This document shows, one piece after another, positions 263 through 60,767 of a stretch of 64,000 nt of DNA (positions are counted from its first letter, which is position 1; the number at the start of each line of letters is the position of its first letter). Both the position numbers and the translations under genes were made by a program. The stretch is from Leucosporidium creatinivorum (lineage: Eukaryota > Basidiomycota > Microbotryomycetes > Leucosporidiales > Leucosporidiaceae), in NCBI GenBank assembly GCA_001600635.1, contig BCKL01000036.1, positions 136,926 to 200,925 of the forward strand. The letters are read 5' to 3'. The notes under the pieces are model-generated. The model was not told where the DNA came from. It saw nothing but the letters and a program-made list of their open reading frames with translations, and did no database searches.

Positions 263-1310
263 TCACTGACCCCACCGCGCCCTCAGCTCCCTCTCCGGCA
301 CACCCGAGCGCCGAGCTTGCCTCGCCGTCAACGAGGGGACGTGGGCTAGGCTGTGCTGCTCATGCTGAAACCCAAGATGGTCGAGCAGCCCTCCTAGAGT
401 CTCTTGATCCGCCTGGATCTGCCGATGAGCATGCTCCAACTGATGTTGGTGGAGGCGCGCTGTGAACCTCTGGGAGAGAGACCGAAAGCCGAGTTGGCGC
501 CGGCGAAGTCAGCTCAATTTCGCGAGAGTAGAAGAGCGCTATCACCTCTGTGAAACGGCGAGCGTAAAGCAAAACCTGTAGGCAGAGTGTGAGTCAGCTC
601 AGCAAGCTACGTCGGACGCAAGCTAACCGACCACGCTGCGAGTCCATGCCGAGCTCGTGTCCCAATCGCGCCAGCCGACCCAGAGGAGGGGCATGAAGCT
701 CTTGCGATCGATTGCTCCCTTCATCATCTTGTCCTCTGCCTCGCGCACGTAACGATGCATGAGGTCGGCTGGAAGTGACAAAAGCCAGATCAGCGAGAAG
801 CTCGGCGATGATTTGAGGAGGCGCTAGGAAGCGAAAGCAGCCGCCCAGACCGCCGGATCGAACATGAACTAGCAAGCTCAATTCAAAGGTCAGCTGTGGC
901 GAGTCGAAGCGAACGCTACCGAACCCACTCACCCGCAGGAAGGGGATGAAGGCGTTCTTCGGCGTGATGTCGGATTGATGGCCGAACGTCTTCATGAATG
1001 AGAAGTCACTGTCCCGGCCCNTGTGTCCCAGCGTGCGCCCNGNCCCTTCNTTGCTGAGCNTGTCCCTCTTCTTGTCNNCGCNCTTGAGTGAATCTTCCGC
1101 CCACTGCTTAACATGCGAAGGGCATTGGAAGAGAGCCGGCTGAGGTTCTTCCGGCAGCAAGCAGTGCACGACTGCTGTACTAACGTCAACCATGCGCTTC
1201 ACCATCTCTGGCGTGAGGCGACCGTCGGAACGAGGAGAGTGGACCGCTGTGAGTTGGTCGGCGGTGGCTTCCCCCGCCCACTGGGCGGCTTGCTCCTCGG
1301 TGATGGGCAT
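263..1310 (-). pseudogene. RARW family copy 1, probably decayed
   Basis: This gene belongs to the unrecognised RARW family. It starts at ATG 1310 (MPITEEQAAQWAG) and, by homology with copy 4, has five exons ending at the TGA at 263-265. The N-terminal part matches copy 4 almost base for base, including the ambiguous bases between 1021 and 1082. The C-terminal part (below about 720) is clearly diverged and its tail ends RARWGQ instead of RARWA. The 5' splice site after the second small exon (near 841) reads CT where copy 4 has GT, so correct splicing looks lost and the retained intron meets a stop. Function is unknown. I call it a likely pseudogene, but the assembly is ambiguous here, so a working gene cannot be excluded. 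Confidence 0.6.
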
Positions 1311-1470
1311 GATGTGGTGGCCGAGAGACGAATGGTGAGATTCGAGAGTTGGAGGGCCGAGAGAGCGAGAGAAGCGGAGCGACCAGGGAGGAAGGGCGCC
1401 GACACATCGCTCCGAGCTCTCGCCATCGGCTATGGGCCAGTGAGGAGGGCTATAGACTGCTGTACAGCAT
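263..1470 (-). repeat. Inverted repeat 1, left arm
   Basis: The reverse complement of this stretch matches 14818-15996. Near-identity covers about 720-1310, from the start codon through exon 1 into exon 3. The promoter side (1311-1470) keeps recognisable blocks but with insertions and deletions, and the 3' third is only moderately similar. The same pattern of N bases occurs in both arms. Confidence 0.85.
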
Positions 1471-1862
1471 CTCCGGCTTGGCGTACCGGTTTTTACAGCC
1501 GCATCGGTGATGTACCAATGATTCGGGGCGATAGACGACACTACAGACAAGGCTGAGGAGAGGGCAAGCTCACGGACCCGAAGCCATCGCTGAGGAGCGA
1601 GCTGCAACCTCACAGGAGCATGTGCGTGGCCCTGAAGTCGCAGAGCAAGCAAGAAGCAAGCTGAAGCAAGATCGTGCTGTAGCTAGAAAGCCTGTGCGAG
1701 GGACGCAATGAACGAGCCCCGAGGCAGCGCTGATTCGTCTTCGCCGAGCTTGAACTTCTCGCCTCTGCCGAGCCTGCTCTCAAGGCTCGTCGCGACTGAG
1801 AAGAAGTATGAACAGGTACTTGTTATTGTCTATCTACAGCTACTTGAGCATCTAACGACGCT
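1311..1862. other. Intergenic: RARW copy 1 promoter and ADH 3' flank
   Basis: About 550 bases lie between the start of RARW copy 1 and the stop of the alcohol dehydrogenase gene. The part next to RARW copy 1 resembles the copy 4 promoter. No other coding signal is seen. Confidence 0.5.
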
Positions 1863-6586: not shown

Positions 6587-7581
6587 TCAAGCCCACCTCG
6601 CCCTCAGCTCCTCCTCCGAGATTCCGTAGCGCCGAGCGGTCCTCGTCGACAATGAGGGAACGTGACGATGCGAGAGGCTGTGCTCGAAGGTATTGGTATT
6701 GAGCGAGGAGAGAAATGCATGCACATCTGGCCCGAGTGCTGCATTCTCCTGAGGGCGAAAGAGCTCCGGATTGGCCACCATCTGGTCCGAATGAGAGTGG
6801 AGGCAGTCAGCAATCGGCAGTCAGGTCGGCTGGTCATACTGTGGCGCACATAGTTGTACTTCTTTACATTGAGGAGGACCTGTCAAATCCACCGGGTAAG
6901 CTGAGGTTGCAAGATCGGAAACAGGACTTACCACCGCCCGAGTCCAAGCCGAGGTTTCCGGCAGATCCCAGTCGCACAATCCGACCCACAGCTCCGGAAT
7001 GACGTGCGCGCGTGAGGGTGCGTGCTGCTTCATGAAATCCACCGTCTCCTTGATGTATTCCTTCATCTTATGAGCTGCGAGAAGGGCCAGAGGGGAAGTT
7101 CGGCAATGAGGTCGATTCAGAGGCAATGCTGGACGCTGGAGAACGTACAAGCGTTGTGAGAGAACATGAGCTGTAGAGGATAAAGGTCAGCCTGCTGTTA
7201 CAAGCGACCTGTAGACTGTACACTCACCTGCCGGAAGGGATAGTGGTGGCAGTGGTTGCGGTCGCTCTCAGTCAGCGCGGCGCCGAATTTGCTCAGGAGC
7301 TGTCCGGTCTCCTCCACACGGAATTGTTCGTTCTCTATGCGGTGCGTCATGCTGTCGCAGTAGGCTACATGATCAGTGCACCAACCCAGCTCGTCCCAGG
7401 CAGGGGTGAATATCGGAGCTGAATGTCCGCCAGCTACGAAGAAGTGCACCACGTCTTTGCTCGCAGACAGCATGAAGTGAGCGAAGTCCGGTGTAAGGGG
7501 ACGAAAAATCCGTATCGTCGGACGGTGGTTGGCGGTGACTGGTCCAGCCTCCGACTCGCATTGCGCGTCGGTGAGGGTCAT
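6587..7581 (-). CDS. RARW family copy 2
   Basis: A diverged member of the unrecognised RARW family. Start ATG 7581 (MTLTDAQCESEAGPV) is chosen by alignment with the starts of the other copies. Exon 1 shows the shared core DVVHFFVAGGHSAPIF. Exon 2 is a 22-nt microexon (LMFSHNA). Exon 3 has WVGLCDWDLPETSAWTRAV, and exon 4 reads VLLNVKKYN. The last exon starts near 6781 and ends in the family tail (ARRYGISEEELRARWA) at TGA 6587. Exon order and intron positions match the other copies, although most of the protein has drifted. It lies between the small membrane-protein gene and ORC1. No known domain, signal peptide or membrane helix is visible. Confidence 0.7.
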
Positions 7582-8340
7582 ACTAGGGAGGATGGAGGGA
7601 AAGAGGAAGAAAGAGAAAGAAACGCAGAGAACAAGGCAGCAGTGCGTCCCGTCAAACCGGCAAAGCGCTCGCGGTCCGCTGAGAGCTCTCGGCGGAGTGC
7701 TCAATCGATCTCGGCGGTGGCGCCCACGGTCCGCTGAGCGCTACTTTAAAGCATGGGGCCGCGTTGTAGTGAGTAGAATCCTTAGTAACTCAGTGAAAGC
7801 TCTGAGCGCCTCTCCCTGGTTCAGCAGCGGCTCGATGACCCTCTTCACCCGTGGTCTCGACGAGCAGCGAGCGGTCGTGAAGAGCGGCAGAGGGGTCGGG
7901 GGACGCCTGATATCAGTCTTCCATCCACCCAGCTAAGTATCCGAAGCTCAGTCAATACTAGAAGCAGCAAAGAAACGAAGCTGAAGCAAGACGAAGGAAG
8001 GAGAAAGAGGATCGGCTGGGAAACGACGAGTGACTTTGGCCTCTCATCGTCTTCCGTCACTCACTGATCTGCTCATGTATAGGAGCAGATGTTCAGGCGT
8101 GATTTCCTGTTGTATAGATAGTCTGCTGCCGAGTAGCAGTCGACGAGCAGAAGGCCGAAGCGAACGCCGAGAAAGTTGCGAAAGCGGCTGAGTGCAGCGC
8201 AGGTTCAGGTTGCGCACCTTGCCTCGCTGATCTCCCGCTCTCACCACTCGCTCTCACTACTCGCCCTCCCCATTACTCGAAGCTAAGGATAATGACTTGC
8301 CCATTTAAGGCCCTCCTCCCAGCCTCACAACTAAGCGCAT
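7582..8340. other. Intergenic between RARW copy 2 and ORC1
   Basis: About 760 bases with several CGCCGA/TCGGCG words but no supported coding exon. The right end is the ORC1 3' flank. Confidence 0.45.
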
Positions 8341-11300
8341 CTAACTCTTCGGCACCCAGCTACCGACATCTTTATCCTCTCTGAAACACTCCCAGACTTC
8401 TCCCACACCGACGAGCATCCTCACCCGCTGGAAGTAGTCCCCTCGCTGCGATTCGGTGGTGAGCAGTTTTTGGGCGTGGAGGGAGGAGAGGAGGGAGAGG
8501 AGGGCCGTGTGCGAGGGTGGAGGGGAGAAGAGCGAGGTTTGGGAGAGGAAGGAGAGGTGGTAGGAGAGGACCTGTGTGGCGAGCAAAGGAAGGAGGGGTC
8601 AGCTCGGCGCGAGCAAAAGCGGGCGAGGGCGCTCACCTCGTCGACTTCAACCTCCTGCACTCCCCTTCTCCGGACCACGGCCGCCAGACTCAACATCAAC
8701 ACCTTCTCCATCAAGCTCAGCCCCTGCAGGAAGGCGTTCGAGCCGTAGTCGGTCATCTCGCGGTAGGTCGTCGAGGCGTCGTGGATGGTGCAGACGGCGG
8801 TAGTCGGTGGTGTGGTGGATGAGTTGCGTTGAGAGACGAGTTCGACCGTGCGCCTATGTATCGAGATTCGAGTTAGGTCAGCTCCAGTCGGCTTTCGAGA
8901 GACGAGAGGAAGAGAAAGCACCTAGCCACATCCAACGCCCTCCTCGCGTCACCCGCACCTGCAGCCACCTTCTTAGCAATGACCTCGATCGCCTTGTTGC
9001 CGAAGACCTTGTCCTTGAGTCCCTTGCCCGCTTGGTCGAGACGAGAGGTGATGATGGTGGAGAGCTCGTCCCATTTGTAGGGGATGAAGACGAGGCGGTT
9101 GGAGCCTGTTGCGCGAGTGGAGGGAGAAGAGACGACAGAGCGGATTAGGTGGGAGCGAGGGAGGGGGGGGAGAAGTGAGATGAAGGACGACGAACGAGTC
9201 AGCTTAGCTCGGCTCGGCTTTCTCACAACTGGCGAGGAGATGGGGTGCAGCAAGAGACGGGGTGCAGCTCGAAGACTCACCGAGACGACTACGGATCTTG
9301 CCGCTCAACTCCCTCTCGGGCAGGTCCATCGTGTTGGCTACGGCGATGACGATGAGCTTGGAGTGAGGCATGTGCGGCCAGTTGAAGAAGTTGTATACGA
9401 CGTCTTGCTTTTTAGTGATCATCTGGTCCAGCTCGTCGACGAGGACGACGCTGTGGCGGTGAAGGTGGTGGTAATAGGAGATGGGCGAGGAGCGAGCCGA
9501 GCGAGACAGAGATTCAACGAGGCAGGGAGGAAGGAGGAATGAGGAATGAGAAGAGGAGCAGCGATTAGGGGTCGGATTACTCTTCCTCCGAAGCATTGGA
9601 GCGAGTACTCACGTCGTGCCCCTCCCCACCCTCGGCTCACCAAACCACTTCTCCAAACTCCCCAACGCGACCCTCGGCGCCGCCTTCTTGCCCCCACTAA
9701 TCGCCTCCCATAGGACCGAGAACGCCGTAGCGGGCTCCGCGATCTTCATGCCGTTGATTTCGACGAAGTGGAAGGGTGGGATGTCCTGTATGGATGGATT
9801 GAGCGAGAGTCAGAGATGAGAAGCGAGCCAAGGGAGCGAGGGGAGGACGGACGGGATCGTTCTGTAGCTCGCGAACGACGCTGTGCACTGTAGCAGTCTT
9901 GCCGGTACCGGGTACTCCGTGGATATCTGTTCGAGTAGAACGCGAGCGAGAAGGTCAGCTCTGTCTTCCTCTCCGGGCCGAACTTCAATCTTCGCTCTCC
10001 TCCCTCGTCGCGAACAGAGCTCGAAGACTTACAGAGACAAGTCCCACTCCCACTGATGATCCCATCCCCCAAGATCCCACCGATCTCTTCCCTCTGCTTC
10101 TCCCTGCACGGCAAGAACTCGGGCGTCGCGGAAACGTGCAAAAGGGCCTGCGCCTGCTTGAAAGGAGGGAGCGTCTTGAAAGTGGCGGAGAGGGNGAAGG
10201 TGGGAGGGATGGAGCTATCGCGAGAGAATGGAAGAGGTCAGCGCACGCCGAGAAGCGAGAAGCGCGAGCCGGAGACGGCGAACTTGACCTCTTCGAACCG
10301 CTCGGCACGCTTCTTCCTATAGTTGCTCCGCTTCTGCTCAACGTTGCCCGCCCTCGATTTGGCGGCCGCAGTAAGCTTAGGTCGAACTCGCTTGGCTGGG
10401 GTCCCGTTCGTCGCCTTCTTGGCCGATTTGGAGGGAGTGAGCTGAGAGGGCGCTTTGCGCTTGACGTTCTTGGTCGGAGTGCGGAGGGGTTTGGAGGAGG
10501 TGGTCGAGCCAGCGTTGGATGAGGGGTCGTCGTCGTCTGAGCCGGAGGCCGAGCCCTCGGCGCCGTCGTCGCTGTCCTCGACGTCCGATGTGGGGTCCTG
10601 CGCAGTCGAGGAAGAGTTCAACGAGAAGTTCTGAGCGGAATAGGAAGCGACAGCACTCACGAAGGTCTCCTCGTCGTCATCCTCGTCGTCCGAGCTGCCG
10701 TTATCCGACTCGGCGTAGTTCCTGCCCTTCTTCCCCGCGCCGACCGTGCTCTTGCTCGCACTCGGCTTGGCCTTCTTCGGCTTCTTCTCCTTCTCCTTCT
10801 CCTTTCCCTTGCCATTGCCCTTCTTCTTGACAACGGAGACGACCTCTTCCTCCTCCTCGTCCATGATGGCCTCGACGTCCCAATCTCCATGCTTCATCCC
10901 TCGATCATACACATCTAAGTAATCGATCTCGCCGATGAACTCGGCTCCGGCGACAGGCTTGGCATCGTACACCTTCCTGACGAGGTAGCTCGGGATCGCA
11001 CCCTGCCGACGAGCATCGGCGGCGTTGGAGGGGAAGGGGTCCGAAGGAGTGAGGATGCAGGCGTGCGAGGTGATGGTGGAGACGGGGATGGAGTCGGTGT
11101 GTAGAGGAGTGCGATCGGCGACCGAGGTAGACGGCCGAGTGCGAGAGGAAGAGGGAGTCCAGGATTGGAGAGCTCGGGTTTCGTGGAGGTGAGTCGAGTC
11201 GGAGGTGTAGTAGAGTTCAAACTGTGGTAGAGACGTGTCAGATGTATCACTTGACAGGCTAAGAACATCAGAACTCACATCCTGCACCTCTTCACCCTCC

Positions 11301-11746
11301 TCTGGCCCCTCGTGGCCCCAAACCGCTCCCGGGCGCGCCAACCACCGTACTTTGGCGAGCATCTCCCCTTTAGCATCCTCATACAGTCCTACAATAATGG
11401 CGACCTTCTCCCCTACTCCCAGCCCATCATTCACCTGCCACGCTCCCTCGAGATCCACCCCTCGCGCTTTCCCCTTCTTGTCGCGCGCCGTCTTGCCGCC
11501 CGCTGCTCGCATGACGTGGTCGGGAGTCTTGAGCCATTCTTGACGGGTTTCTGCTGCTGCGCTGACGATGACGGCGTCGCCTGCGCCGAAGCGAGTGGGC
11601 TGCGAGGTGCTCGAAGCGACGCGGGTGAAGGCAGAGTGAGGGATGTCGTTGCTGAGCCCTTTGAGGCGGGAGGCGCGAGCAGGCGAAGCTGCAGTCGATG
11701 TTCTGGACGCAGAGGCAGCGGGCGCATCCGCCCACGAGTCGACCAT
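8341..11746 (-). CDS. ORC1: Origin recognition complex subunit 1
   Basis: ORC1 is the AAA+ subunit of the complex that marks replication origins and loads MCM in the nucleus. It starts at ATG 11746 (MVDSWADAPAASASRTS). The N-terminal half holds a BAH-type module (LEGAWQVNDGLGVGEKVAI, then AKVRWLARPGAVWG), followed by a long acidic/basic linker rich in Ser, Asp and Lys. The AAA+ core shows Walker A (GVPGTGKTATVHSV, near 9900), Walker B (VLVDELDQM, near 9430), and sensor-1 (VAVANTMDLPER). A C-terminal winged-helix part ends at the TAG at 8341. About eight exons give roughly 900 aa, normal for fungal Orc1. One N lies at 10195. It is flanked on both sides by RARW genes that point away from it. 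Confidence 0.95.
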
Positions 11747-12337
11747 TGTCGGCGAGCTCTGAGACGAGGTGAAAGGCGGAGAAAGAGAGACGCGTCGCTT
11801 GTCGAGAGGTGATGGAGTCGACTAGGAGCTCGAGTGCAGCAGAAAGTATAGAGCTGGTGTCTGCCTAGCTGCAGCTTCTCTCCGTTGCTTCGTGTCAGGT
11901 CGCTGCACCGTTTTGGCCAGTCTCGCTTTCGCCGAGCTTGGTGCGGGAGCGACAGCTCATCGACGGGGGATAGCAAAGTACAGGAGCATGGGAAGAGCCG
12001 GAGTAGAAGTCTGATCACTCCCTGGACAGGCACACTTACATTTCAGACGCTTGGACGAGGCTGCAGCTGACTTCTCGGCGATATTTTAGCTGTCTCCAGG
12101 GAAGGGGTCTTCGCTGCTCCCCTAGCGAGGTTCCCCTCTTTGTCAAGTACACCCGAGCTGTATACTTGTCCTCCAGTCCTGCTGTACCGCATGATTCTAT
12201 ACAGTGTGGTCTCGCCACGCCGAGTCCGAGGAGAGAGCACTGCTCGGCGTTGCATGGATCTTTGCCGTTCTGCTCCTTCTTCTTTCTCTTCCTCCGTCTT
12301 GCTGGTCTATCTTTCTCGCCCAGAGCTGCACACCAGC
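11747..12337. other. Divergent intergenic region between ORC1 and RARW copy 3
   Basis: About 590 bases separate two start codons that point away from each other, so this region should hold both promoters. I cannot point to a specific regulator site. Confidence 0.5.
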
Positions 12338-13380
12338 ATGCCTATCGACACAGCGCAAGCCGTTAAGTGGACCGGTCCGGAGACGGCCGACCAACGCGCA
12401 AAGCTGCCATCGCATCGCCCGGATGGTCGTCTGACAGTACCCATCGCAGAGCGCATGCTCTCCGTCTCGACGAGAGTAGCGCACTGCTTCGTGAAGGGTG
12501 GGGCACACTCGCCCATCCTGGAGCCTTCTCTGCAGGCGAGGATCTGGTGCCATCAGACCCTCAAGCGCGATGAAGCGAAGGCGGAGACAATCAAACCGCA
12601 TGGCACAAGTCATTTGGAACTCGCTCACCGAAAGGAGCTAGCGGACACGACCTTTAGCACAGGGTTCGGCCGAGCCGACGATATCACGAAAGGGAATGGA
12701 AGGATCCCCTTCTTGCGAGTGAGTAGCGTAGTTGACCATTTCTCAGACCTGCATCAAACTGACACCAAGGCCATAACAGCTGATGTTTGACCCAGAGACT
12801 TGTGCGCCGCGGTCCTAATCCCACCGCCAAACTCGGCGACGGCGCTGATATATCTCTTCTTACTTCAGCCGAAGACATGTACAAATACATCAACAAGGCG
12901 GTATACTGGATGATGAATGGGGGAACGAAGCGCAACAACTTCTTCCCTTTCCTTTACGCTGGCTGGCGTGATTGGAAGTCCAGCTCGGCTTGGACGCGAG
13001 GTGTGGTGAGTTTTGACCGCAAGACTGCATCACTCACGTTGCGCTGATCTCTAGCATACGCACGTTATTAGGTCCTGCTTTACGCAAGGGAGTACAGAGA
13101 GGTAATCGCGTCGCTGTCCATGCGCGAAATTCCCCTTCCGCGATCGCCGAGCTGAGGCTTCCCTTTGCAGAAGGTGGAGAAGGGCCACCAACATCACCTG
13201 GAGACACAGCAGCAGATCATGGATGAGCTTCTTGCTGATATCGGGTGCAGCCCCCAGCGCACTCCCGAGCAGCAGCATGAGCAGCACAGCATGGCTCATC
13301 GTCACGTCCCTTCGTTGTCGACGAGGCAGGCTCGGCGCTCGGGCGTGTCGGAGCAGGAGTTGAGGGCGAGGTGGGCTTGA
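12338..13380 (+). CDS. RARW family copy 3
   Basis: Member of the unrecognised RARW family with all splice sites intact. ATG 12338 gives MPIDTAQAVKWTGPETADQ. Exon 1 includes STRVAHCFVKGGAHSPI and ends IPFLR before GTGAGT. Exon 2 is a 22-nt microexon (LMFDPET). Exon 3 has AVYWMMNGG and WRDWKSSSAWTRGV, exon 4 is the 30-nt VLLYAREYRE, and exon 5 has a Gln/His/Glu-rich stretch. The tail (PSLSTRQARRSG, SEQELRARWA) ends at TGA 13380. Predicted length is about 250 aa. Conserved aromatic and charged positions suggest a folded intracellular protein, but no known domain is visible. Function is unknown. Confidence 0.8.
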
Positions 13381-14961
13381 GGGTGTCAAAGGTGTGGGAG
13401 GACAGTAAAACTGAGTTGATAGCTCCCATCTGGCGTCAACTACCCTGACCCGAGAACGAGCGAACGCCGCGAAGGCTGATAGCAGGCATCGCCGAGTCGG
13501 AACTTGGGAGCGCTGTCTCTGCTAGCCCTCTCACCCATCATTAACAGCAAGTGAGAGCAATGCTGGGACGCCTAGTGCAGCACAGCCATCCTTTATCGCG
13601 GTCTTGCTCTCTCCTAGTGTCCACCTAGACCGCTCGGCGCTTCCACATCTCTTCCCTCCCCCTCGAATCCCTCGCAACAAGTCCGTCAGCCCTACACCTG
13701 GCCAGCGCCCTCACTAACAGCAGCCTTCTCCTCTCTGCTGGCCTCCAACAGCTCAGCTAGCCTACTCAGTTGCCGCTTGGCCCGTCTTTGCTGGCTGGCC
13801 GTTGTCGCCGAGCTGACGAGTTGGGAGTTGAGGGTAGCAAATGAGGGGGCTCGGGATGATCTCGGAGGCAAGACGAGAATGGGTGGTAGCCGAGTACTAG
13901 ATGGTGGAGTTGTTGTAGGATGCGAGGGTGGAGAACCACGGCGGGAGGAGGAGCGGAAGCGAGCGACGAAGGGTTGAGCGGTCGAGGAGATGGTGGGAAG
14001 TGCTGGGAAAGGGCATGAGGCAGATCATGAGGTAAAGAAAGCTGTTCTTGATGCTTCCAGGTTCGACATCCGACTAGCTGAGGCCACCGCCGAAGCCTGA
14101 GAAGGGAGAGCCGAAGCGGTCCGTTCTGAGCTCTTTGTCGCCGCACTAGTCCTCTGCAGCACCTCGAAAGCCATCCTTATCCCTTCTTTGTCCCGCTCAA
14201 GCCTCGCGCCGCCGCTCTGTACCCTTTTGGCGCACTCCGCTCCTCGCCCATTTGCAACTCGCGCCTCGCCCCCAATGTCCCGCCTTCGACCTAGAGAGCA
14301 GCACCGAGTCCTCCTAATAGCTTTATTTGACAAGCGGTGCAATTCGTGCACGACGCAGCGAGTCCCAGCTAGACTCGAGACGAGAGAGCGGGTGAGCGGC
14401 AGCGGCGAAATGGCGATGGTGATGTGCAGGAAGGAGCTAGAGTGTGGAGAGGGAAGGTTGAGTCGCCGAATATGCTGTACTACTGTGCATTCGTGCTGTG
14501 AGTCGAGGCGTAGACGAGTCGTGATGTAGCAAAAGCGAGAAGAGCACGCGACTCGTTTCGCTCAAATTTGAGCGGGCTGGGAGAGGCCAAGGTGTTGGGG
14601 TTAGAGGTGTAGAAGGGAGCACAATAGCACGATAGCTCCCCCAGAGCAGCGCGAACGGTAATTTAACCCCTGACTGAGGCTACAGCTCACTTCTCGGCGA
14701 TAGCTGCGGGTCGGTGAGCTTGCCTTCGCCTCAGGCAGATCTATAGGCCTGCTCATCGCTCCGAGTCATCGGCGCATTGGCAGTGCAGCCTCACGAAGCG
14801 GTGCGCCAAGCTCGAATTGCTGTACAGCAGTCTATAGCCCTCCTCAGTTTCAACTCACAGCCGAGAGCTCGGAGCGAAGTGTCGGCGCCCTTGTCCGCCT
14901 CTCTCGCTCTCTCCTCCCTCCACCTCTCGAATCTCACAATTCGTCTCTCGGCCACCACACC
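13381..14961. other. Intergenic region between RARW copies 3 and 4
   Basis: About 1.6 kb. A minus-strand frame at 14351-14025 has some protein-like composition (MAFEVLQRTSAATKSSERT) but lacks a good start and clear splice partners, so I do not call a gene. The last 140 bases are the copy 4 promoter, similar to the copy 1 promoter. Confidence 0.4.
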
Positions 14962-15996
14962 ATGCCCATCACCGAGGAGCAAGCCGCCCAGTGGGCGGGG
15001 GAAGCCACCGCCGACCAACTCACAGCGGTCCACTCTCCTCGTTCCGACGGTCGCCTCACGCCAGAGATGGTGAAGCGCATGGTTGACGTTAGTACAGCAG
15101 TCGTGCACTGCTTGCTGCCGGAAGAACCTCAGCCGGCTCTCTTCCAATGCCCTTCGCATGCTAAGCAGTGGGCGGAAGATTCACTCAAGNGCGNNGACAA
15201 GAAGAGGGACANGCTCAGCAANGAAGGGNCNGGGCGCACGCTGGGACACANGGGCCGGGACAGTGACTTCTCATTCATGAAGACGTTCGGCCATCAATCC
15301 GACATCACGCCGAAGAACGCCTTCATCCCCTTCCTGCGGGTGAGTGGGTTCGGTAGCGTTCGCTTCGACTCGCCACAGCTGACCTTTGAATTGAGCTTGC
15401 TAGTTCATGTTCGATCCGGCGGTCTGGGCGGGTGCTTTCGCTTCCTAGCGCCTCCTCAAATCATCGCCGAGCTTCTCGCTGATCTGGCCTTTGTCACTTC
15501 CAGCCGACCTCATGCATCGTTACGTGCGCGAGGCAAAGGACAAGATGATGAAGGGAGCAATCGATAGTAAAAGCTTCGTGCCCCTCCTCTGGGTCGGCTC
15601 GCGCGATTGGGCGTCCAGCTCGGCTTGGACTCGCGGCGTGGTCAGTTTCAGGCTTGAGAGCTTCTTCGCTTGCTGGGCTAACTCTCTCTCTTTCCATACA
15701 GGTTCTGATTTATGCTCGCCGCTTTGAAGAGGTGACAGCTCTCTTCCCTTTTCGCAACAGCAAGCTGACTTCGCTAATTCGGATCTCGGTTTCTTTCGCA
15801 GAGGTTCACAGCACGCCTCCAGGTAGAGCGCGTGCATCGGCAGATCCAAGCGGACCAAGACAGCTTGGAAGGGCTGCTCGACCATCTTGGGTTGCAGCAC
15901 GAGCAGCACAGCTTAGCCCACGTCCCCTCGTTGACACCGAGGCAAGCTCGGCGCTCAGGCGTCACGGAGAGGGACTTGAGGGCGAGGTGGGCTTGA
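14818..15996 (+). repeat. Inverted repeat 1, right arm
   Basis: Mirror partner of 263-1470. Near-identity runs from the start codon at 14962 through about 15550 with the same N pattern (15190-15251), then similarity drops abruptly inside exon 3. The spacer between the arms is about 13.3 kb and contains ORC1 and two other RARW genes. Confidence 0.85.
14962..15996 (+). CDS. RARW family copy 4
   Basis: The reference member of the RARW family. Exon 1 (14962-15339) encodes MPITEEQAAQWAGEATADQ through VSTAVVHCLLPEE to NAFIPFLR, with several ambiguous bases in its middle. Exon 2 is a 28-nt microexon (FMFDPAVWA). Exon 3 has YVREAKDKMMKGAI and WVGSRDWASSSAWTRGV, exon 4 is VLIYARRFEE (30 nt), and exon 5 a likely coiled stretch (HRQIQADQDSLEGLLDHL). 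The tail (PSLTPRQARRSG, TERDLRARWA) stops at TGA 15994-15996. All introns have GT-AG ends. Function is unknown. It lies just upstream of the uL23 gene, on the same strand. Confidence 0.8.
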
Positions 15997-17422: not shown

Positions 17423-18364
17423 AGCATCGACGATTCATTTTGGTGCCCTTCGCCATCCGCTTTCCGTTCCCCCTCGACCCCGCTCGCTTTCGCCCTTTCC
17501 CCTTTCCCCTCAACCTACCGTCGTCTCATCACCCTCCTCCCTCCCTTTCAACGTCGTCCTCTCACTCGTTTCGACTACACCTCTTTGTACCAAACTCGAC
17601 CCACCCCTCCGACCGCTTCATGGATTCGCTCCCTCACTATTCGACTCGTTCGAACCGTGGATCCGTCGCTTGGAAGGAGGAGAGTCGGGGGAGAACGTGC
17701 TAGTCGAGTCGACCGATGGTGGTGTGGGAGTAGGAGTGATTGATGATTCGTTCGGTGCGGTCGAGTAAGGAGAGAACGGGGCCTTGATTGAGTGGGAGGA
17801 GAGTGGAGGTTTGGGAGGTGGTGACGGAGGGATGGGCTTGTGCGGTCGGGCAATCCGATTGGATGAGTTTCTCGGTAGTTTGTCGCCCCGGCTGAGGAGA
17901 GCGGCGTGGCGAGGGAGAGGCGCGAACGGAGCTCGGCGAAGGAGCGGTGCTGTTTCGTACGCTTGCGCTGGCGTTGTGCCTCGCTCTGCGGTTCTCGTGG
18001 CTCTTCAGATACCTCAGCGGAACCCGCCGCGCGCAACTGCGAGCCTCTCGCTCGCCCGACGACCTCCCTCACCGAAGCTAAGAGAGCAGATCGCTCGACG
18101 TTCGCTTCGCTCGTTCACGAGTGCTCCTCGGCTCGACTAGGCGACAATCAGAGCGCACAACTTTGTTTGAGAGTCCTCGCTTCACAGATAGCAGATTCCC
18201 ATTCGCCTCGAGGTTGGGCACAAGGTCAACCGAACTGGCAAAGAGCGCTCCGCCGAGAGCTGCCAGCGGGGCGCAGGGCTGAGGCTCTGAGCAGTGCAAA
18301 AGACGACACTTCGTCGCTTCTCCTCCGCCTCTTTCTTTCACACTTCTTCTCTCACCTCTCTTAC
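17423..18364. other. Intergenic between RPL25 and RARW copy 5
   Basis: About 940 bases. Open frames here are long only because of Pro/Ser/Arg-rich low-complexity composition, and none shows conserved motifs or good splice borders. The first part is the RPL25 3' flank and the last part the copy 5 promoter. Confidence 0.4.
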
Positions 18365-19418
18365 ATGCCGACAACAGGCATCAGCCGGGACGACGCTCAT
18401 ACTTGGGGCGGGACCGAATCCGCCAATTCTCTGTTCCCCATCCCCGCCGAGCGCTTCACTAGGGGCAACTTTACACCCATCCTGGACTTCACAACCGCGG
18501 TGGTTCACTGCTTTGTCACAGGTGGATCAAGCCAACCCATCATTCCTGCTTCTATAAACGGACGTCTCAACGTGGAGCGGTGTGAGGAGGTGCTGGTGCG
18601 CAATGCGGAGAGACGGGCTAAGTACCCGACGACACAGGACAAAAGGAAGCTGCAGAAGGTGGTGTTCAGACGTCATGAGGAGGAAGTCACTTTTCGCCGG
18701 ACTCTCGGCGCCTTGGAGGGGATTCCAAAGCGAGGGACCGGCGCATACGCCTTCACTAGGGTGTGTGATTCCTCCCTTTGGGTCCTTTACACGCAAAGAA
18801 GCTCACTTTCTCTCGCACGCTCTAGCTTATGTTCGACCCCCGGCTTTGTAAGCCAATGTAAGGCGATGATCCCTCGGCGCTCGGCGCTAACCCCCGATGG
18901 CTTTGCCTCGACTTCTTTAGCTGAGAGGATGTATGACTACGTCGAAAAGGCAGTGACAACTATGATGCACTCGGGGGTCCAGGGAGGCTTCCGCAAGGAG
19001 CTCGTTGTTGGCTGCAGAGATTGGCACTCGCCGACTATCACGGCGTGGGCAAGAGGAAAGGTGACTTGGATAGAGCTGGGACTCGGGTCCTCCCGCTGGT
19101 GCTGACTCCCCCGATCTGACACATTAGATACTACTGTGCGCTAAGGAGTACAACAAGGTGCCCTATTATCCTACGTTCTGCGCCTCGAATCTCTCTCCGA
19201 CGAAGCCTGTGAGCTGACTTGCTTCCTTTCAGCTGCCTGAAGTTATCGAGTACCACCACCACCAGCAGAGGGCGCAATACCTTGAAGACTTTCTGTCTCT
19301 GCCAACTGACGGGGTCATAGAATATGACGGGCTTCATCAACACGTTCCCTCGTTGTCGCCGAGGCAGGCTCGGCGCTCGGGCATGTCGGAGGAGGAGCTG
19401 AGGGCGAGGTGGGCTTGA
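18365..19418 (+). CDS. RARW family copy 5
   Basis: Diverged RARW member with an intact five-exon structure. ATG 18365 (MPTTGISRDDAHTWGG) leads into FTTAVVHCFVTGGSSQPII. Exon 1 ends at AYAFTR. Exon 2 is a 22-nt microexon (LMFDPRL). Exon 3 has AVTTMMHSG and VGCRDWHSPTITAWARGK, exon 4 ILLCAKEYNK, and exon 5 a His/Gln-rich run. The tail (PSLSPRQARRSG, SEEELRARWA) ends at TGA 19418. The N terminus differs greatly from copies 1 and 4, while the tail is nearly unchanged. It is convergent with the regulator gene at 19700-22217. Function is unknown. Confidence 0.75.
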
Positions 19419-19699
19419 ACCAAAACATGGTCATAGCTACAACATATATCAGATGCCTGTCCAGCTCGATCACAGTACAGTAGGCTGGAAGCGAAACGAT
19501 GATCGATCACCGACTGAATAACCCTAGCTTCGGCTGCTGAGCCGCTCTCTAGCTCAAGCTGCGGTCGCTCACAGAGGGTAACAAAAAGCCTGATATAATT
19601 TTACAAGCTACCTGCTGTGCTACTCCCGAGCCGCTCGCCCTCTACTGGTTCACTGCCTTGGCCGACCGAGCCCGCCGAGCACTAGAGACTAGCCAGCTC

Positions 19700-23905: not shown

Positions 23906-24733
23906 TCAGCGCCTCTCCCCCTCCATCCCAGCGCTCCTCCTCCTCTCCATCGCCATCGTCTGATCCAACATCCTCCATCCCTGCGCCCGATACTGCAGCA
24001 CCACCTCAAAACTCTTGATGACGTTCACGAGGGCGTCGGAGCTCGATCGACGGCGGTGGGAGGGGAGGGGAGCGATGGGTCTCGGCGGTGGGGAGGAAGG
24101 AGGGGAGCGGTGGTCGGCGGCGGAGTAAGGGGGTGGCGAGGTCGTGCGTTGTAAGGTGGTTGNCTCGTGGGAGGTGGGCAGAGGCGGCGAGGAGGTGCAG
24201 CCTTTGCGGCGGAGAGGNTGAGGGGAGAAGGAGGGGCAGCCTCGGAGGTTGGACTCGGGGCGAGTGAGAGTCGGTGGAGGAAGGGATGCCTGCCGCTGGT
24301 CGCGAGAAGACGGCGCTTCATCCCCGTTCTGCTCCTCCTCTACCTGAGCATCCTCATCCGGCGTCATTCCGCCCTTCCCGTCTGCCTCTTCGCCCTCCTC
24401 CTCTACCTCAACCTCACTTCCCTCCCTCAGAGTCCTCGCCCTCTTCACTTCCCTCTCATCCCCACCCGCAGCAACCTCCTGCCCCTTCACCACCCACTGA
24501 GCCACGAGATGGTCATACAGCGCCGCGTAGACCTGAGGCGTCGGCCTCGAAGGAGGCGGACCATGGAGTTGAGGAGTGGGGGTCGAGTAGCCTCGAATAG
24601 GCGTTGGATGGTGGAGGGATGGGAGGGGGTAGGTGTGCGAGCGAGGAGGGACGGGATGCAGCATGGAGGGCGCGTTTTGCTGTTGTTGATGGGCGAGGGG
24701 AGCGGAAGGCAGCTGCGCCGAGGAGGGGTTCAT
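23906..24733 (-). CDS. Intronless orphan protein, left-arm copy
   Basis: A 275-codon uninterrupted frame from ATG 24733 (MNPSSAQLPSAPLAHQQQQ) to the stop at 23906, notable among intron-rich neighbours. The N-terminal third is Pro/Gln/His-rich. Then comes a conserved-looking helix (PQVYAALYDHLVAQWVVKG), an acidic stretch, a Ser/Pro/Arg-rich middle with two ambiguous bases (24164, 24219), and a C-terminal helix (ALVNVIKSFEVVLQYRAQ, then GWRMLDQTMAMERRRS). No known domain is visible. Same orientation as the regulator 1.7 kb downstream. The right-arm copy has the same length. Several substitutions lie in the first 110 residues and almost none after. A nuclear cofactor is possible but unproven. 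Confidence 0.65.
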   Translation of the reverse strand: MNPSSAQLPSAPLAHQQQQNAPSMLHPVPPRSHTYPLPSLHHPTPIRGYSTPTPQLHGPPPSRPTPQVYAALYDHLVAQWVVKGQEVAAGGDEREVKRARTLREGSEVEVEEEGEEADGKGGMTPDEDAQVEEEQNGDEAPSSRDQRQASLPPPTLTRPESNLRGCPSFSPXPLRRKGCTSSPPLPTSHEXTTLQRTTSPPPYSAADHRSPPSSPPPRPIAPLPSHRRRSSSDALVNVIKSFEVVLQYRAQGWRMLDQTMAMERRRSAGMEGERR

Positions 24734-44469: not shown

Positions 44470-44475
44470 CCGACC

Positions 44476-53856: not shown

Positions 53857-54557
53857 AAGTCGAGTAGTTTGTAGAATAGCGTCGTGCTTGCTTGTCTGTA
53901 TCCACTACTTTCACATTTTCGCGCCTCGTCGAGCTGAGTGAGAGCGGAGTCTCTCGGCGAAGCTTTCCCGGCGTCGACTGTTGCGGAAAGTGGGTATATT
54001 CGCCAAGACCTATACACAACACAAGGAGCAGTCTTAAACATGTCTTCCGTCTCTCAGCACCCTCAAGATGCAACCGCAGAGCGAGAGGGGGAGCAGGGCA
54101 GGCGCGACGGTCTCGGCCTCCGCAACGGCCGAGGCTTGGTGATGTCTTGATGCAGATTCGGTCTCGGCGGTCGGCCCTCCTTGCCGTACGGGATCAGATG
54201 CACAATCCGCTCAACATGTCCCATCACGCTGCAGCTCGCGCTGGGTCAGGCCAAATCGAGGCTTTGCGCCGAGGTGAGCCTCGACAAGCTCGGTAGATGA
54301 TGCACTGATGCCGTGGAGCAAGCCATCGCGCGCCTGGAGCTTTTTTGTTTGGGTAACACAGATCGCCCACGGCAGGGAAAGCAGGCGAGACCAGCGATGA
54401 GGCAGGATCAGCGACCTCGGCCTGGAGCTGAGAACGACGAGAGCAGCGAGGGCCTTCTCGTTCGTTCGCGACGTCGGTTGTCCTTCTACCATATCTTGCA
54501 CCGTCTACCGAGCTACAGCAGGCCACCAAAGTTCTTCGTCACTTCTCGCCGCCCTCG
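53857..54557. other. Intergenic at the inner edge of the right arm
   Basis: About 700 bases. A short frame at 54040-54150 (MSSVSQHPQDATAEREGEQG) and the segment after about 54330 resemble, with gaps, the region upstream of the left orphan gene. No complete gene is supported. Confidence 0.4.
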
Positions 54558-55385
54558 ATGAACCCCTCCTCGGCGCAGCTGCCTTCCGCTCCCCTCGCCC
54601 ATCAACAACAGCAAGACGCGCCCTCCATGCTCGACCCACCGTTCCCCCAGAGCTCTCACACCTACCCACTCCCCTCCCTCCACCATCCAACGCCTATCCG
54701 AGGCTACTCGACCCCCGCTCCTCAACTCCATGCTCCGCCTCCTTCGCGGCCGACGCCTCAGGTCTACGCGGCGCTGTATGACCATCTGGTGGCTCAATGG
54801 GTGGTGAAAGGGCAGGAGGTTGCTGCGGGTGGGGATGTGAGGGAAGTGAAGAGGGCGAGGACTCTGAGGGAGGGAAGTGAGGTTGAGTTAGAGGAGGGCG
54901 AAGAGGCAGACGGGAAGGGCGGAATGACACCGGATGAGGATGCTCAGGTAGAGGAGGAGCAGAACGGGGATGAAGCGCCGTCTTCTCGCGACCAGCGGCA
55001 GGCATCCCTTCCTCCACCGACTCTCACTCGCCCCGAGTCCAACCTCCGAGGCTGCCCCTCCTTCTCCCCTCANCCTCTCCGCCGCAAAGGCTGCACCTCC
55101 TCGCCGCCTCTGCCCACCTCCCACGAGNCAACCACCTTACAACGCACGACCTCGCCACCCCCTTACTCCGCCGCCGACCACCGCTCCCCTCCTTCCTCCC
55201 CACCGCCGAGACCCATCGCTCCCCTCCCCTCCCACCGCCGTCGATCGAGCTCCGACGCCCTCGTGAACGTCATCAAGAGCTTTGAGGTCGTGCTGCAGTA
55301 TCGGGCGCAGGGATGGAGGATGTTGGATCAGACGATGGCGATGGAGAGGAGGAGGAGCGCTGGGATGGAGGGGGAGAGGCGCTGA
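54558..55385 (+). CDS. Intronless orphan protein, right-arm copy
   Basis: A 275-codon frame from ATG 54558 (MNPSSAQLPSAPLAHQQQQ) to TGA 55385, the partner of the left-arm gene. About ten substitutions and small in-frame length changes lie in the first 110 residues (for example SMLDPPFPQSSHT against SMLHPVPPRSHT). From the acidic stretch onward the two proteins look the same. Both keep equal length and frame although they differ at the N terminus, which is mild evidence for a real protein. It contains the helix QVYAALYDHLVAQWVVKG and a C-terminal helix. No known domain is visible. Two N bases fall inside it. Confidence 0.65.
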   Translation: MNPSSAQLPSAPLAHQQQQDAPSMLDPPFPQSSHTYPLPSLHHPTPIRGYSTPAPQLHAPPPSRPTPQVYAALYDHLVAQWVVKGQEVAAGGDVREVKRARTLREGSEVELEEGEEADGKGGMTPDEDAQVEEEQNGDEAPSSRDQRQASLPPPTLTRPESNLRGCPSFSPXPLRRKGCTSSPPLPTSHEXTTLQRTTSPPPYSAADHRSPPSSPPPRPIAPLPSHRRRSSSDALVNVIKSFEVVLQYRAQGWRMLDQTMAMERRRSAGMEGERR

Positions 55386-56950
55386 GGCCCGAGGGGCGGG
55401 AGAGGAGGGGACAGTGGTCGTGGAGGTGTAGATAGCTCGTGCAAAGCGTAGTGTTGTATGTCGGTGGAGAAGAGCAGCTGAGAAGCTCTAGTCTGGCGAG
55501 CCGCGAGAGTTGACCACCTTCGCCGAGCTGCCGCGCCGACCGAGACTGCTCTTTTCGCCCGTTGACGACGCCGCCCGTGCCTGAGAGAGCATACATCGAC
55601 GCCGTTCCTTGAATTAACTGCTCGATTTCTGCACCTGCACGCAGAAAGCGAGTTAGCTCCGAGTCGCCCTTGCTCTTCCCGCTCTGCAGCCTTTCCAAGT
55701 CGACTGACCTGCAGCCCTCAGACCCTACGCTACTCAACTTCATCCGACGCTCCTGCTACACCACTCGTACCGATCCAAGATCGCTCCCGCTCTGCCGCAA
55801 CGCATGCCAATCGCGGTCTTTTCAAGCGCTGATCGTGTNCAGGCGCTGCAGGCGAGTTGCAGGGTGAGCAGCAGATTGATAGTGAGGTTTGGAAGCTTCG
55901 TAGAGCCCGCACCAATCGACCGCCGAGCTAGGGAAGCGAGTGAGAGTAGCGAGCGAGTTGAGCAAGGCTCAGCTGTTGTGAAGGCGGTGTAGGGCGTTAG
56001 AGCGCTGTGCGAAGGCGCAGAGCACTCCCTCGGAGCTGTAGTACGATATGTGGTCGGCGAGAAGCGGAAACGAGTNAGATGTGGCCGAAAGGCAAGCGCC
56101 GAGCCGAACGACTTGGGCTGAGAAGTTGAGGGACGCTTCTTGCCCTTCGACGTCTTCCTGCTCGCTTTTCGGCGCCTGTCTTCGGTGCAAAAGATCTCTG
56201 AGCTGCTGCCCTACTGAGCTACACGACTGCTGCCCTCCTTAGCTCGCTACGGAAACCGGCGTGTTTCGAGCTCCGCCAGCGGAAAGGTTGGCGAGCTACT
56301 CAGGAGTTTTAGTTGCTGTTGGGCGACTTGGAGCTCGCTCTATCACTCTGTAAGCTGCTGCCTTCTGCTTCCCTGATCGTTCTCGCTGACCTGAGACTTG
56401 GGCAGCCTCTTCCTGGCTCGGACGAGGTCTCTCGCGCATCTACTGGCTATTGACGGGGCAAGAGCAGACTCTCTGAGTGTCCATAAGCTGCCTTGGAAGC
56501 TGCTCTGCATCGACCAGCACCATCTGAGGGATCAGAGGTGAGCTTCAGCCGTTCTCTCTTGCGCCGAACCCGATCCGACGCCGTCTACAGTGCGTTAGAC
56601 TGACCCTACACTCGTACAGCAGTGCTCTTCGATCGACGAGAAGACCTTGATCTGTTCCGCCAGCTCGCTCCCGCCGCCGTCAACATCCTCTTGGTCGCCA
56701 CCCCCTCCCCCTCGGTCGTCAGCCTTCGCCGAAGCTCAGCTCCGCAGCAGCCCAGGTGCGCCGAGTCCGGTCGTTTCGAAGGATCGACACTCCCTTCCTC
56801 ACACACCAGCGCATGATAAGTAATCATGGACGGACAGGAGACGTCTTCGGTTCGTTCGCCCAGCGCCGAGCTCCGCTGAGCGCGATTCCGGCTCCAGGAC
56901 TCGCAGACGACCTTGAACTTCGCCTCTTGGCTTCGTTCGATTCATCAACA
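55386..56950. other. Region between orphan and regulator, right arm
   Basis: About 1.57 kb, near-identical to the left arm up to about 56130 and diverging after about 56430. It contains the degenerate exon pair at 56406-56740. A minus-strand frame ending at 55969 (HISYYSSEGVLCAFAQ) mirrors the left arm. One N lies at 56076 that has no N partner on the left. Confidence 0.4.
56406..56740 (+). pseudogene. Degenerate exon pair of an unknown gene, right arm
   Basis: Counterpart of 22560-22882. The first piece (56406-56537, 132 nt) reads AHLLAIDGARADSLS and KLLCIDQHHLRDQ. After a GT-AG intron the second reads VLFDRREDLDLFRQL and APAAVNILLVATPSPSV. Conserved residues between the arms (LLCIDQ, VLFDRRED, LFRQLAPAAVN) suggest a once-coding gene, but the frames do not join. 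Confidence 0.4.
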
Positions 56951-59464
56951 ATGCGTGCTTGTGCTCAGTGCCGGCACAGGCGGATAGCCTGTATCGAGCT
57001 CACCTCGGACGGTTGCCGAACCTGCACGAAGAGGCGAGTCCAGTGTACGGGACCGACGATGCATCAGAAGCACACGAGGGTCGCCAAGGGAGCAAAGATG
57101 GCTGAGATCAGGTGAGTTGCCGTTTGCTACACCTCTGCTAGTCCGCCGAGCTCACCCACGCTATTCGCAGGCAGACTTTCGGGAGCATTGAACCGAAACT
57201 GGAGGTGGCGACGATCAACTCTCCAACATCTCTCCTCGTCACGACAGAGCTAGCAGCAGCTCTTCACTACCACCTCGTCCAAGCGGCTCGAACAGCTGCC
57301 CGCAACACCACGCCCGGCACTCGCTTGGATCCGCTCGCCTACCAGCTCGCTCCGACCACTTTCCGCCGAGAGGAGGTCGAGATCCTCTTCAGCGACTGTC
57401 CACTTCTCGCCAAGAGAAGGGCCAACCCCCTCCTGCTTTCGAGCCCCCAAGCCGCCCCTTCCGACGACCGACTCATTTCTAACGCCGTCCAGCGACAAGC
57501 GCCCATCTTCTCGGAGCACGCCGACACCGCCGAGCTCGTCCACGCGTGTTTCTCGGCATTCGGATCAAGATGGTCTAGTCATTCTGTACGTTATTGACTC
57601 TCTCTCCTCGCCCCGGAGCTCACTTCCGCTCCTCGAGCTTCGCTTTCGCCCGTCGAGCGGAACAACTGTCGCCGGAAGAGCAGTGCTGACCGTCCTTCGC
57701 TTCTACAGGCCATCGTCGGATCCTCTTCCACGGCATCCTCTTCGCAGCAGGGTGCGGAAAGGGAAGGGCCATGTCACGCCCTCATCGACAGAGCCATCGC
57801 CGTCGCCGAAGGACAGGGCCTGCTATCCTCCAAGAAGCCGACGATCAAGCAAGCTCGAGCTGCCGCTTTCCTTCTTCAAACGGCACATGGTGAGCTTGAT
57901 TCATTCTCTCGGGTGTGTGTACGAGGCTTTCAGCGACTCGACTGGGCCTCGTGAGTCGTCGAGCCTCGAGCTTTCGCTGATGTCTTCTCGCTCGCAGTCG
58001 TCGCGCCAAATCATCATGCACTACCTCAAATCGTCAGGGACGTTCAACGAATACGTCTCGCAGCCTACAGCAACAAGGTGAGTGACAGGTTCGAGCTTCA
58101 CACGACGGGGCTGCGCCGAGCTCGGCTGAGTGTCGGGTCGAGGTCAGATCGGGATCTTGCCGTACAATACCCTCGGGCTTACTCCTTCATTCTTCCGCAG
58201 GAGAACCTGACGCGAGAAGTACAATGGAGCTGGAACACCCCTGTACCCGACACCGCAATACTCGACGCTCAGTTCGCTCTTCGCTCGCATTCCTCCTGCA
58301 CACTGTGAGTCGGTCGCTTAGTCTTCCCTCTCGTCTTTACACTGAATTCTCTTCTTTCAGCTCGGACGACGACATCTCGAGCACCTCGGCGTGGTCGCCG
58401 AGCGTCGCGCTCAAGTCTGCCGAGTATCTCCAATCGCTCATTCCGAAGGCGTGGAACAATAGGGAGATGGACCCCGAGTCCTTGTACCTACATCTCTGCG
58501 CCGTCAATCTCTACCTTCTCCGCTCTCTCGTCCTACTTCGACAAGATTGTAAGCTGCGCCGAGCTGATATCGTGATCCGCCCGCACTGACTCCCGATCCT
58601 TGCAACAGGTCACCAACAACCGCCCATCTTCATCTACTCGTCTTTCACGCATCTTGCCGAGATCTTTGACATCACCATCACTCTCTTCAAAGTCAAGCGC
58701 AAGCAGATCGCCGCCTCCACCGCTCTACTCGAGAGCGGATGGCTCGACATGCTCAACGGCCAGTCGAGGTGCTCCCTCGAGTACGCCAGCCATGTTTGCT
58801 CGTCGATCCAAGCCATCGCCAGGGCAAATGAAGCTTGGGGACAGAGTGGCTTCTGCGCCGAGTTGAGCGACCGGTTCGCCAGGATCCTTCTTCGGGCCGT
58901 CAAGCATCTGATCGAGTCGTCTGCGCTGGTCAGTATTTGAAAGCTATCTTGGAGCAAGTCGCTCATCCCTCGTCTCTATAGCAAGAGCTCGACGATGTAG
59001 CGCGCGTGATGGACGTCGCGCCCCTCGTCGCGACTTGGCTCCCGACTTTGACTGGCTGTCGCTGGTCGTCTCAGCGGCTAGCCCTTCAAGTTCGTTTGCC
59101 GACCTCGGTCTCACCATTGGTCACATCACTCGGTGAGCGCTTTTCCTCGCCCGAGACAAAGCCGAATCAACGAGCTGATCCTGTGTCCGTCCAATAGGCT
59201 GCAAAGTGCTCTCGAACGGATAGGCCAGCTCTACGGGATTGTGTCTCAGCAGTCCGAGAAGCTCAGTGAGGGTTTGGTGTCGCTGTTGGATGTTTCTCGT
59301 GGACCCCACCTTCCCGGCTTCATCGAGGTGAGTTCGGCCGAGCCGCCTCGTCGTCTGACAGGCGATCTGACTTTCTTATGTGCCTACAGGAGGTGCAAGA
59401 TGACCAGAGGGATACTTTCGCCAAGCTGATGGTAGAAGTAACACTAGAGGACCTGGAAACTTGA
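56951..59464 (+). pseudogene. Zn(II)2Cys6 transcription factor, right-arm copy with a frameshift
   Basis: ATG 56951 (MRACAQCRHRRIACIELTS) gives the same C-x2-C-x6-C-x7-C-x2-C-x6-C cluster as the left-arm gene, then TMHQKHTRVAKGAKMAEIR. About ten exons share intron positions with the left copy. Segments such as YLHLCAVNLYLLRSLVLL and LNGQSRCSLEYASHVCSS align well. Near 59032, in an exon reading DVAPLVA, one base is missing relative to the left copy. The neighbouring frame continues exactly as PDFDWLSLVVSAASPSS, homologous to the left PDFDWLQLVVSAAEPSS. Unless this is a sequencing error, the last 120 residues are lost. The final exon still encodes DTFAKLMVEVTLEDLET. I class it as a probable recent pseudogene. 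Confidence 0.6.
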
Positions 59465-59740
59465 TGCTGCTCGTGTTTCGGTGCTCGGCGCGGATGGTTG
59501 TCGATGGTGGAGCAGGTGGCGAGCTTAAGAGTGGACAGCGCGAATTAGTGGTCTTGTAGCTCTCCAGCCTTGTCTGACTGTGAGACCTTCACACGAGTGC
59601 CCGAGAGGAGCCGACGGAGCGAGCGCCGAGCTCCGACTCTCAGCAGCCGCAGGGACAAGGCCGAGGACGCTGGCTTCCAGCTTTCTGCAACGGCCACGGT
59701 AAACAATGCAGTCTCAACTCCAGCTCAACTGAAACCCAAG

Positions 59741-60767
59741 TCAAGCCCACCTCGCCCTCAGCTCGCCCTCTGATACGCCCGAGCGCCGAGCCTGCCTCGG
59801 CGTCAAAGAGGGAAGATGAGTCATGCTCAGCTGCTGCTGCTGGCGCTGGTGCTCGTCGACGTCCAGATCGTACGCCAAAATGTTTGCAATCAGATCCTGT
59901 TGTTGCTGGTGATGTTGGCGCCCGCTCTCGATGGTCTGTCGGCGAGGCGGAGTTAGCTCGGCGCTTGCAAGGAAGCAGCAAGGTGAAGATGACCCTTCGG
60001 TAACGCTTAGCATAAAGAAGAACCTACATAAAGCAGTTTGTTAGCATCAACACAAGGCTATCACCGCCGAAGGGTATCTCACCACGGCTCGAGTCCACGC
60101 CGAGCTGGACTCCCAGTCTCGCAAGCCGACCCAGAGGATAGGGTAGAAGCCCCCTTGACCTTTTCCGTGATCCATCATCCAATCGACAGCTACATTGACG
60201 AAGTTGCGCATCTCAACAGCTGGGAGTGGGGGATAAGAGCGTCAGCGTCGGAAGCGAGATAGCTCGGGCCTCGGGGATGAGAAGGGACGAAGAGAAGCAG
60301 CCCACAACATGCAGGGTCGAACATGAGCTGTATGACGTGGCGGTCGGTGAGTCACTGAATTCGCAAGAGGAGGGGTGACAACTCACCCGTAAGAAGGGGA
60401 TTTTAGCGTTGTATTGAGAGATGTCGCGCGCGTAGCGAAATCCCTTCAGGAAGGGCGTATCATGCGACTTGTTGAGGTGTGCTCTGCCTGGGTGCCTTGG
60501 CAGCGTCTCCCTGAGGGTCTTCCTCTTGCCCTCATCATTGTCCAGGACCAGACGACACCACGATACGGGCTGGCCTTCGCAGCGGAGAATCGCCGAGTGG
60601 CCGCCGCCCCCGACAAAGCAGCGCGCGATTGCTGTACTGACGTCGAGCATGTGCATCAGCATCTCCGGGGTGAGGCGCTCGTCGATGCGAGGCGACGGAT
60701 AATCCGTGAGCTGATCAGCTGTCGCCGAGCCGGCCCATTGAGCGGCTTCCTCCCTGGTAATGGGCAT
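59741..60767 (-). CDS. RARW family copy 6
   Basis: Right-arm RARW gene, intact. ATG 60767 gives MPITREEAAQWAGSATADQ, closer to copies 1 and 4 than to its mirror partner copy 5. Exon 1 has VSTAIARCFVGGGGHSAI and ends IPFLR. Exon 2 is a 19-nt microexon (LMFDPA). Exon 3 has AVDWMMDHG and WVGLRDWESSSAWTRAV, exon 4 VLLYAKRYRR, and exon 5 a Gln-rich stretch. The tail (PSLTPRQARRSG, SEGELRARWA) ends at TGA 59741-59743. It converges on the regulator gene with 277 bases between stops, as in the left arm (282). Function is unknown. Confidence 0.8.

Follow-up and report, generated by a model that had tools for sequence, protein, structure and literature searches.

The window carries six related genes. 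It is the 64,000-nucleotide stretch of Leucosporidium creatinivorum DNA that was analysed, and five of the genes fall within about 19 kb, as the first-pass annotation had claimed. The genes and their exons are as follows:

263-1310, minus strand: copy c1, exons 1310-933, 868-841, 768-632, 575-546 and 469-263
6587-7581, minus strand: copy c2, exons 7581-7228, 7170-7149, 7074-6932, 6879-6850 and 6781-6587
12338-13380, plus strand: copy c3, exons 12338-12718, 12780-12801, 12869-13005, 13072-13101 and 13171-13380
14962-15996, plus strand: copy c4, exons 14962-15339, 15404-15431, 15504-15640, 15702-15731 and 15802-15996
18365-19418, plus strand: copy c5, exons 18365-18760, 18826-18847, 18921-19060, 19128-19157 and 19233-19418
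59741-60767, minus strand: copy c6, exons 60767-60387, 60327-60309, 60219-60083, 60023-59994 and 59935-59741

The common five-exon layout at these positions, which had been proposed from a first reading, was borne out when the sequence was read and spliced. Joined at the homologous junctions, the exons of all six copies gave proteins of 247 to 259 residues with no internal stop. Intron phases were 0/1/0/0 and exon 4 was 30 nt long in every copy. GT was present at the start of 23 of the 24 introns and AG at the end of all 24, and a CTRAY branch point was found in 19 of the 24, compared to 4.2 expected after shuffling; c1 and c4 are near-copies, and the 24 introns are therefore not 24 independent cases. 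With the c1/c4 pair set aside, kinship of the copies went beyond chance, with tblastn E values down to 7e-28 (c3 with c6). Frames, phases, splice sites, branch points and homology thus confirmed a multicopy protein-coding family, and the common intron places supported the earlier view that it was duplicated as genomic DNA. Most likely, this is a real fungal protein-coding family that spread long ago in that way. No seventh copy was found in the window, all tblastn matches with E < 0.01 being inside the six loci. One candidate at 36977-37045, matched by the last 25 codons only (tblastn E 0.84 to 4.2), was rejected; the stretch is arginine-rich and of low complexity.

Gene content, short introns with branch points and a G+C content of 59% show that the window is fungal. 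When 20 open reading frame pieces were compared with Pfam, eight matched at E up to 0.01 (the piece at 10241-11821 only below the curated cut-off) and 12 gave no match; eight longer open reading frames were without a Pfam match, and no Rfam family or tRNA was detected when the window was scanned for them. The genes recognised included a Zn2Cys6 cluster (E 2.7e-5), a eukaryotic uL23/L25 ribosomal protein and a His-kinase A domain; amino-acid and sugar permeases, a zinc dehydrogenase and a protein kinase were also present. The description of the neighbours as housekeeping genes was appropriate for uL23 but not for the permeases or the Zn2Cys6 regulator, and the genes are an ordinary mix.

A large inverted duplication was also observed in the window. 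Positions 22550-24885 match 56737-54408 at 95%, and in a second part 19826-22226 match 59338-56942 at 73%. Copies c5 (from 18365) and c6 (to 60767) are located at its matching outer ends, and the arms (18365-24885 and 54408-60767) carry the Zn2Cys6 gene and one gene without an assigned identity. The spacer of approximately 29.5 kb between the arms could, in principle, invert. Between 21519-21674 and 57653-57498 there was 1 mismatch in 156 bases, within a region that is 71% identical, a result reached by none of 1000 shuffles; the tract 22830-24619/56457-54675 had 28 mismatches in 1779. Both the 156-base island and this tract appear conversion-like, and both are outside the family. The N bases at 23452, 24163 and 24218 pair with those at 55839, 55128 and 55073. 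In total, 22 of the 24 N bases in the window form 11 pairs, the members of each occupying positions that align exactly between paralogues, the remaining two being at 10195 and 56076; these pairs mark reads that map to both paralogous copies.

The encoded proteins are most likely soluble, about 29 kDa in size and, where modelled, mostly helical, each combining a variable body with a constant tail. No membrane-like segment was detected in any of the six (highest 19-residue hydropathy 0.86 to 1.14), and hydropathy analysis of the same proteins did not find a hydrophobic N terminus. Folds were predicted with AlphaFold for single exons rather than for the whole spliced protein, so that fold matches cover exons 1 and 5, and both models were weak: mean pLDDT was 61.3 and pTM 0.27 for exon 5 alone, and 57.6 and 0.48, respectively, for exon 1 alone. 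In the low-confidence model of the tail, two short helices were placed around a Gly turn. The motifs quoted in the first-pass annotation stood as consensus sequences but not as strict patterns. VVHCFVxGG was exact in one of the six copies (c5). LMFDP was present in three (c3, c5 and c6), with FMFDP in c1 and c4 and LMFSH in c2. SExELRARWA was present in four (c2, c3, c5 and c6), with TERDLRARWA in c4 and PERELRARWG in c1.

Two further observations were made on the genes. Exon 2 (12780-12801 in c3, for example) has methionine as its second codon in every copy; this residue is a possible internal start, although its conservation may have other reasons. The sequence GCCGAGAGCT occurs four times in the window, compared to 0.76 expected, and none of 100 shuffles reached four; it was chosen by eye after the flanks had been viewed, and the count is therefore no fair test. 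Three sites (7684-7693, minus strand; 14860-14869, plus strand; 18252-18261, plus strand) lie approximately 93 to 104 bases before the start of c2, c4 and c5. The fourth (22424-22433, minus strand) is on the strand of the Zn2Cys6 gene, 5' of the open reading frame piece of that gene. GCCGAGAGCT may be a shared promoter element.

Copies c1 and c4 share a near-identical tract, the two sides of which are:

707-1333, minus strand: c1 side, 619 compared bases with 5 mismatches
14939-15565, plus strand: c4 side, 619 compared bases with 5 mismatches

This tract begins 23 bases ahead of the start codon and ends within exon 3. Homology between the two copies as a whole begins approximately 300 bases ahead of the start and reaches the last tail codons; in the rest of this region there were 140 mismatches in 685 bases, and overall identity around the tract was 80%. 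The tract score was reached by none of 1000 shuffles. To judge from the alignment, the tract has the signature of gene conversion. Intron 2 of c1 is the only one of the 24 introns without a GT donor at the homologous junction. Neither internal GT of exon 2 keeps the frame, read-through into intron 2 meets a stop after 14 codons, and the last codons of the gene are changed (..RARWGQ). Because there is no frame-keeping donor and read-through is soon terminated, c1 is probably disabled; intact copies exist. With regard to disabled copies, which had been named as a check on the family, one of the six in the window is thus probably disabled.

Comparison of silent sites along the genes set the last 25 codons apart from the rest. 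In c3 this piece is:

13303-13377, plus strand: 25-codon tail of c3; the same piece ends the other five copies and is alike at silent sites

The dS values and the codon-agreement counts exclude alignment gaps and codons with N. With the c1-c4 pair left out, dS was at least 1.03 in exon 1 (14 of 14 pairs; two undefined), at least 0.90 in exons 2 and 3, and at least 0.93 in exons 4 and 5 before the tail (four undefined). All 15 pairs gave dS values of 0.18 to 0.74 over the last 25 codons, and tail dN (0.06 to 0.23) was lowered together with dS. Since silent sites in the bodies are saturated, the bodies are old, apart from c1 and c4. This result opposes a recent expansion, which had been thought probable on first reading; the young-looking parts are the tail and the c1/c4 tract.

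Codon usage was compared at positions where the amino acids agree, the c1-c4 pair again being left out. The same codon was used in 203 of 264 comparisons in the tail, compared to 418 of 908 in the body; for the 57 body columns that are conserved in at least five copies, the proportion was 221 of 484. Fisher p-values treat sequence pairs as independent and were set aside in favour of a permutation of columns. With columns as units (23 in the tail, 119 in the body), mean agreement was 0.74 in the tail compared to 0.46 in the body (p = 3.5e-4). The same-codon fraction of the tail was 0.769, compared to 0.332 expected for independent draws from the codon usage of the window, and the largest value in 500 simulations of that usage was 0.428. 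Arginine codons illustrate the effect: AGG is used in all six copies at two tail positions, and two further positions have CGG and CGC, respectively, in all six, while the commonest arginine codon in the window is CGC (186 of 563; AGG, 119). The 260-base 3' flanks showed no match among the copies; one c2/c5 alignment extends approximately 25 bases beyond the stop codon. Because dN in the tail falls along with dS, constraint on the amino acids alone is insufficient, and either exchange between copies or constraint at the DNA level is needed.

To what extent exchange could be distinguished from constraint was examined with trees and branch-length models. The best tail and body trees had the same topology, and support was weak: bootstrap values were 51, 62 and 78 for the tail and 55, 57 and 100 for the body, and the topologies not rejected numbered 45 of 105 and 12 of 105, respectively. 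There is consequently no topological conflict to prove exchange, and an argument from differing nearest neighbours in tail and body was dropped. The tail tree was about five times shorter than that of the body (0.66 compared to 3.28), and for c5 the tail branch was near zero, whereas its body branch measured 0.90. When the tail was compared with the part of the body outside the c1/c4 tract, unlinked branch lengths fitted better than proportional ones (logL -1478.1 vs -1490.9, 8 extra parameters, p = 0.0012). AICc favoured unlinked lengths (3018.1 vs 3024.8), whereas BIC favoured proportional lengths (3096.1 vs 3116.2).

The earlier remark that no named family could be recognised held within the Pfam, NCBIfam, PDB, viral and prokaryote contig searches, and no clear match to a known domain family was found among the curated models of Pfam and NCBIfam. 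None of the six members matched Pfam at E up to 10, and four tail peptides and one exon 3-5 piece gave no match in Pfam-A, in searches whose HMMER filters discard most weak matches. The sole NCBIfam match, from one of the six members to a transporter model at E 0.15, was short of the curated cut-off in a library that was built for prokaryotes. Among PDB sequences, the best E values were 0.16 for the family profile and 4.5 for exon 5. Foldseek searches with the low-confidence single-exon models gave no match for exon 5 and 22 for exon 1, the best at E 2.9. A protein profile identified no relative among 45 pattern-matching stretches of viral contigs, in which the exact tail DNA also had no match, nor was there a relative among 49 pattern-matching stretches of prokaryote contigs. 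Literature searches for the strings ELRARWA and LRARWA gave no paper, a result that does not imply absence from print; a word search within PMC12093110 showed nothing on this family. The family is therefore unrecognised in the sense that it is absent from the libraries searched (Pfam, NCBIfam, PDB, viral and prokaryote).

Fungal genomes hold lineage-specific "hypothetical protein" families that are, like the present one, multicopy, fast-changing and without a curated domain; unlike in those unnamed families, silent-site likeness here is confined to the last 25 codons. The proteins encoded by wtf genes are membrane proteins. In the present family membrane-type segments are absent and it is the 3' end of the coding sequence that stays constant. 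The likeness to wtf is one of behaviour, and no match in sequence would be expected. According to two papers, the wtf genes of Schizosaccharomyces are small multi-exon genes in many copies, some of them dead, with nonallelic gene conversion, a poison start in exon 2, and stretches of the gene that are conserved next to others that diverge (PMC9562144, PMC11497594). The variable MSG genes of Pneumocystis likewise share one short, nearly invariant DNA piece, the CRJE, which is 24 bp long, is thought to act in recombination and is located at the 5' end of surface-protein genes that lack introns and measure approximately 3 kb (PMC2743713). The piece described here differs in being 75 nt long and at the 3' end, in genes of about 1 kb with four introns and no hydrophobic N terminus. 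Membership in wtf or Pneumocystis MSG was not supported.

Several other explanations were weighed against these data. The tail could be under constraint not only in its amino acids but also at the DNA or RNA level, with a regulatory or pairing element in the final 75 bases of coding sequence, and exchange would then be unneeded. The shared best topology with a fivefold shorter tail tree, and a likeness that stops near the stop codon and leaves the 260-base 3' flanks without a match, agree with such constraint. It is opposed by the near-zero tail branch of c5, by third codon positions that vary in 12 of the 25 tail codons, and by the failure to find a conserved RNA fold: none of 22 predicted pairs had changed on both sides, and five of the six tails folded no better than shuffles (z -0.88 to 0.99), c3 alone, with a z of -2.20, folding better than most. 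A conserved RNA hairpin in the tail was rejected on these folding results, and constraint at the DNA or RNA level was considered possible, at roughly one chance in four. Exchange was ranked above it, not by much. A separate doubt concerns the c1/c4 tract, since merged reads may overstate its identity and make it in part an assembly artefact. Each of the 8 N bases in c1 is aligned with one of the 8 in c4, a sign of reads mapping to both copies, and 3 N at 23.4-24.2 kb pair with 3 at 55.0-55.9 kb. Five called differences remain in the tract, however, and even with the 8 N counted as differences it is still far from the 20% divergence outside; an artefact of this sort is unlikely, though assembly may have sharpened the tract.

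The two remaining explanations concern the nature of the family as a whole. A family of selfish killers or meiotic drivers resembling wtf, in which a short product would start in exon 2, would fit the clustered multi-exon copies, the conversion tract, the one probably dead copy and the exon 2 methionine common to all six; the lack of membrane-type hydrophobic segments in all six proteins, the lack of a Pfam sequence match and the lack of any support for drive or a second promoter make this reading very improbable. Still harder to credit is that the genes represent the coding portion of an ancient mobile element and the copies its scattered insertions. Although the copies are on both strands and at unequal distances, common ends were not found, the 260-base 3' flanks are without a match, and long 5' flank homology is limited to c1-c4, with three short matches of 22 to 27 bases besides. 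None of the six members matches Pfam, and c5 and c6 adjoin one inverted segmental duplication rather than insertion sites.

The explanation we put forward, tentatively and at somewhat less than even odds, is a family with a diverging body and a constant docking tail that is kept by selection on the protein together with short ectopic exchanges. The last 25 residues would dock on one fixed partner, a role that is a guess, and the body would diverge to meet changing partners; likeness of the tail would be maintained both by protein selection and by short ectopic exchanges between copies. Exchange within the family is supported by the conversion-like tract seen in c1 and c4. A more doubtful proposal is that the last 75 coding bases are a 3' homology anchor, through which copies recombine so that old, divergent bodies are joined to a common end that is homogenised continually.

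Should the family turn out to be widespread, or to be listed already as a hypothetical-protein family in fungal proteome sets, it would be an ordinary orphan family. If the anchor reading is true, it would represent a body-swapping device in soluble fungal proteins, the mirror of the Pneumocystis MSG 5' junction element. Homogenisation of the tail by exchange would make it a case of compact concerted evolution, limited to 75 coding bases in a gene that is otherwise saturated. Since the libraries searched do not contain it, the family also offers a clean target for studies of function in a fungus.
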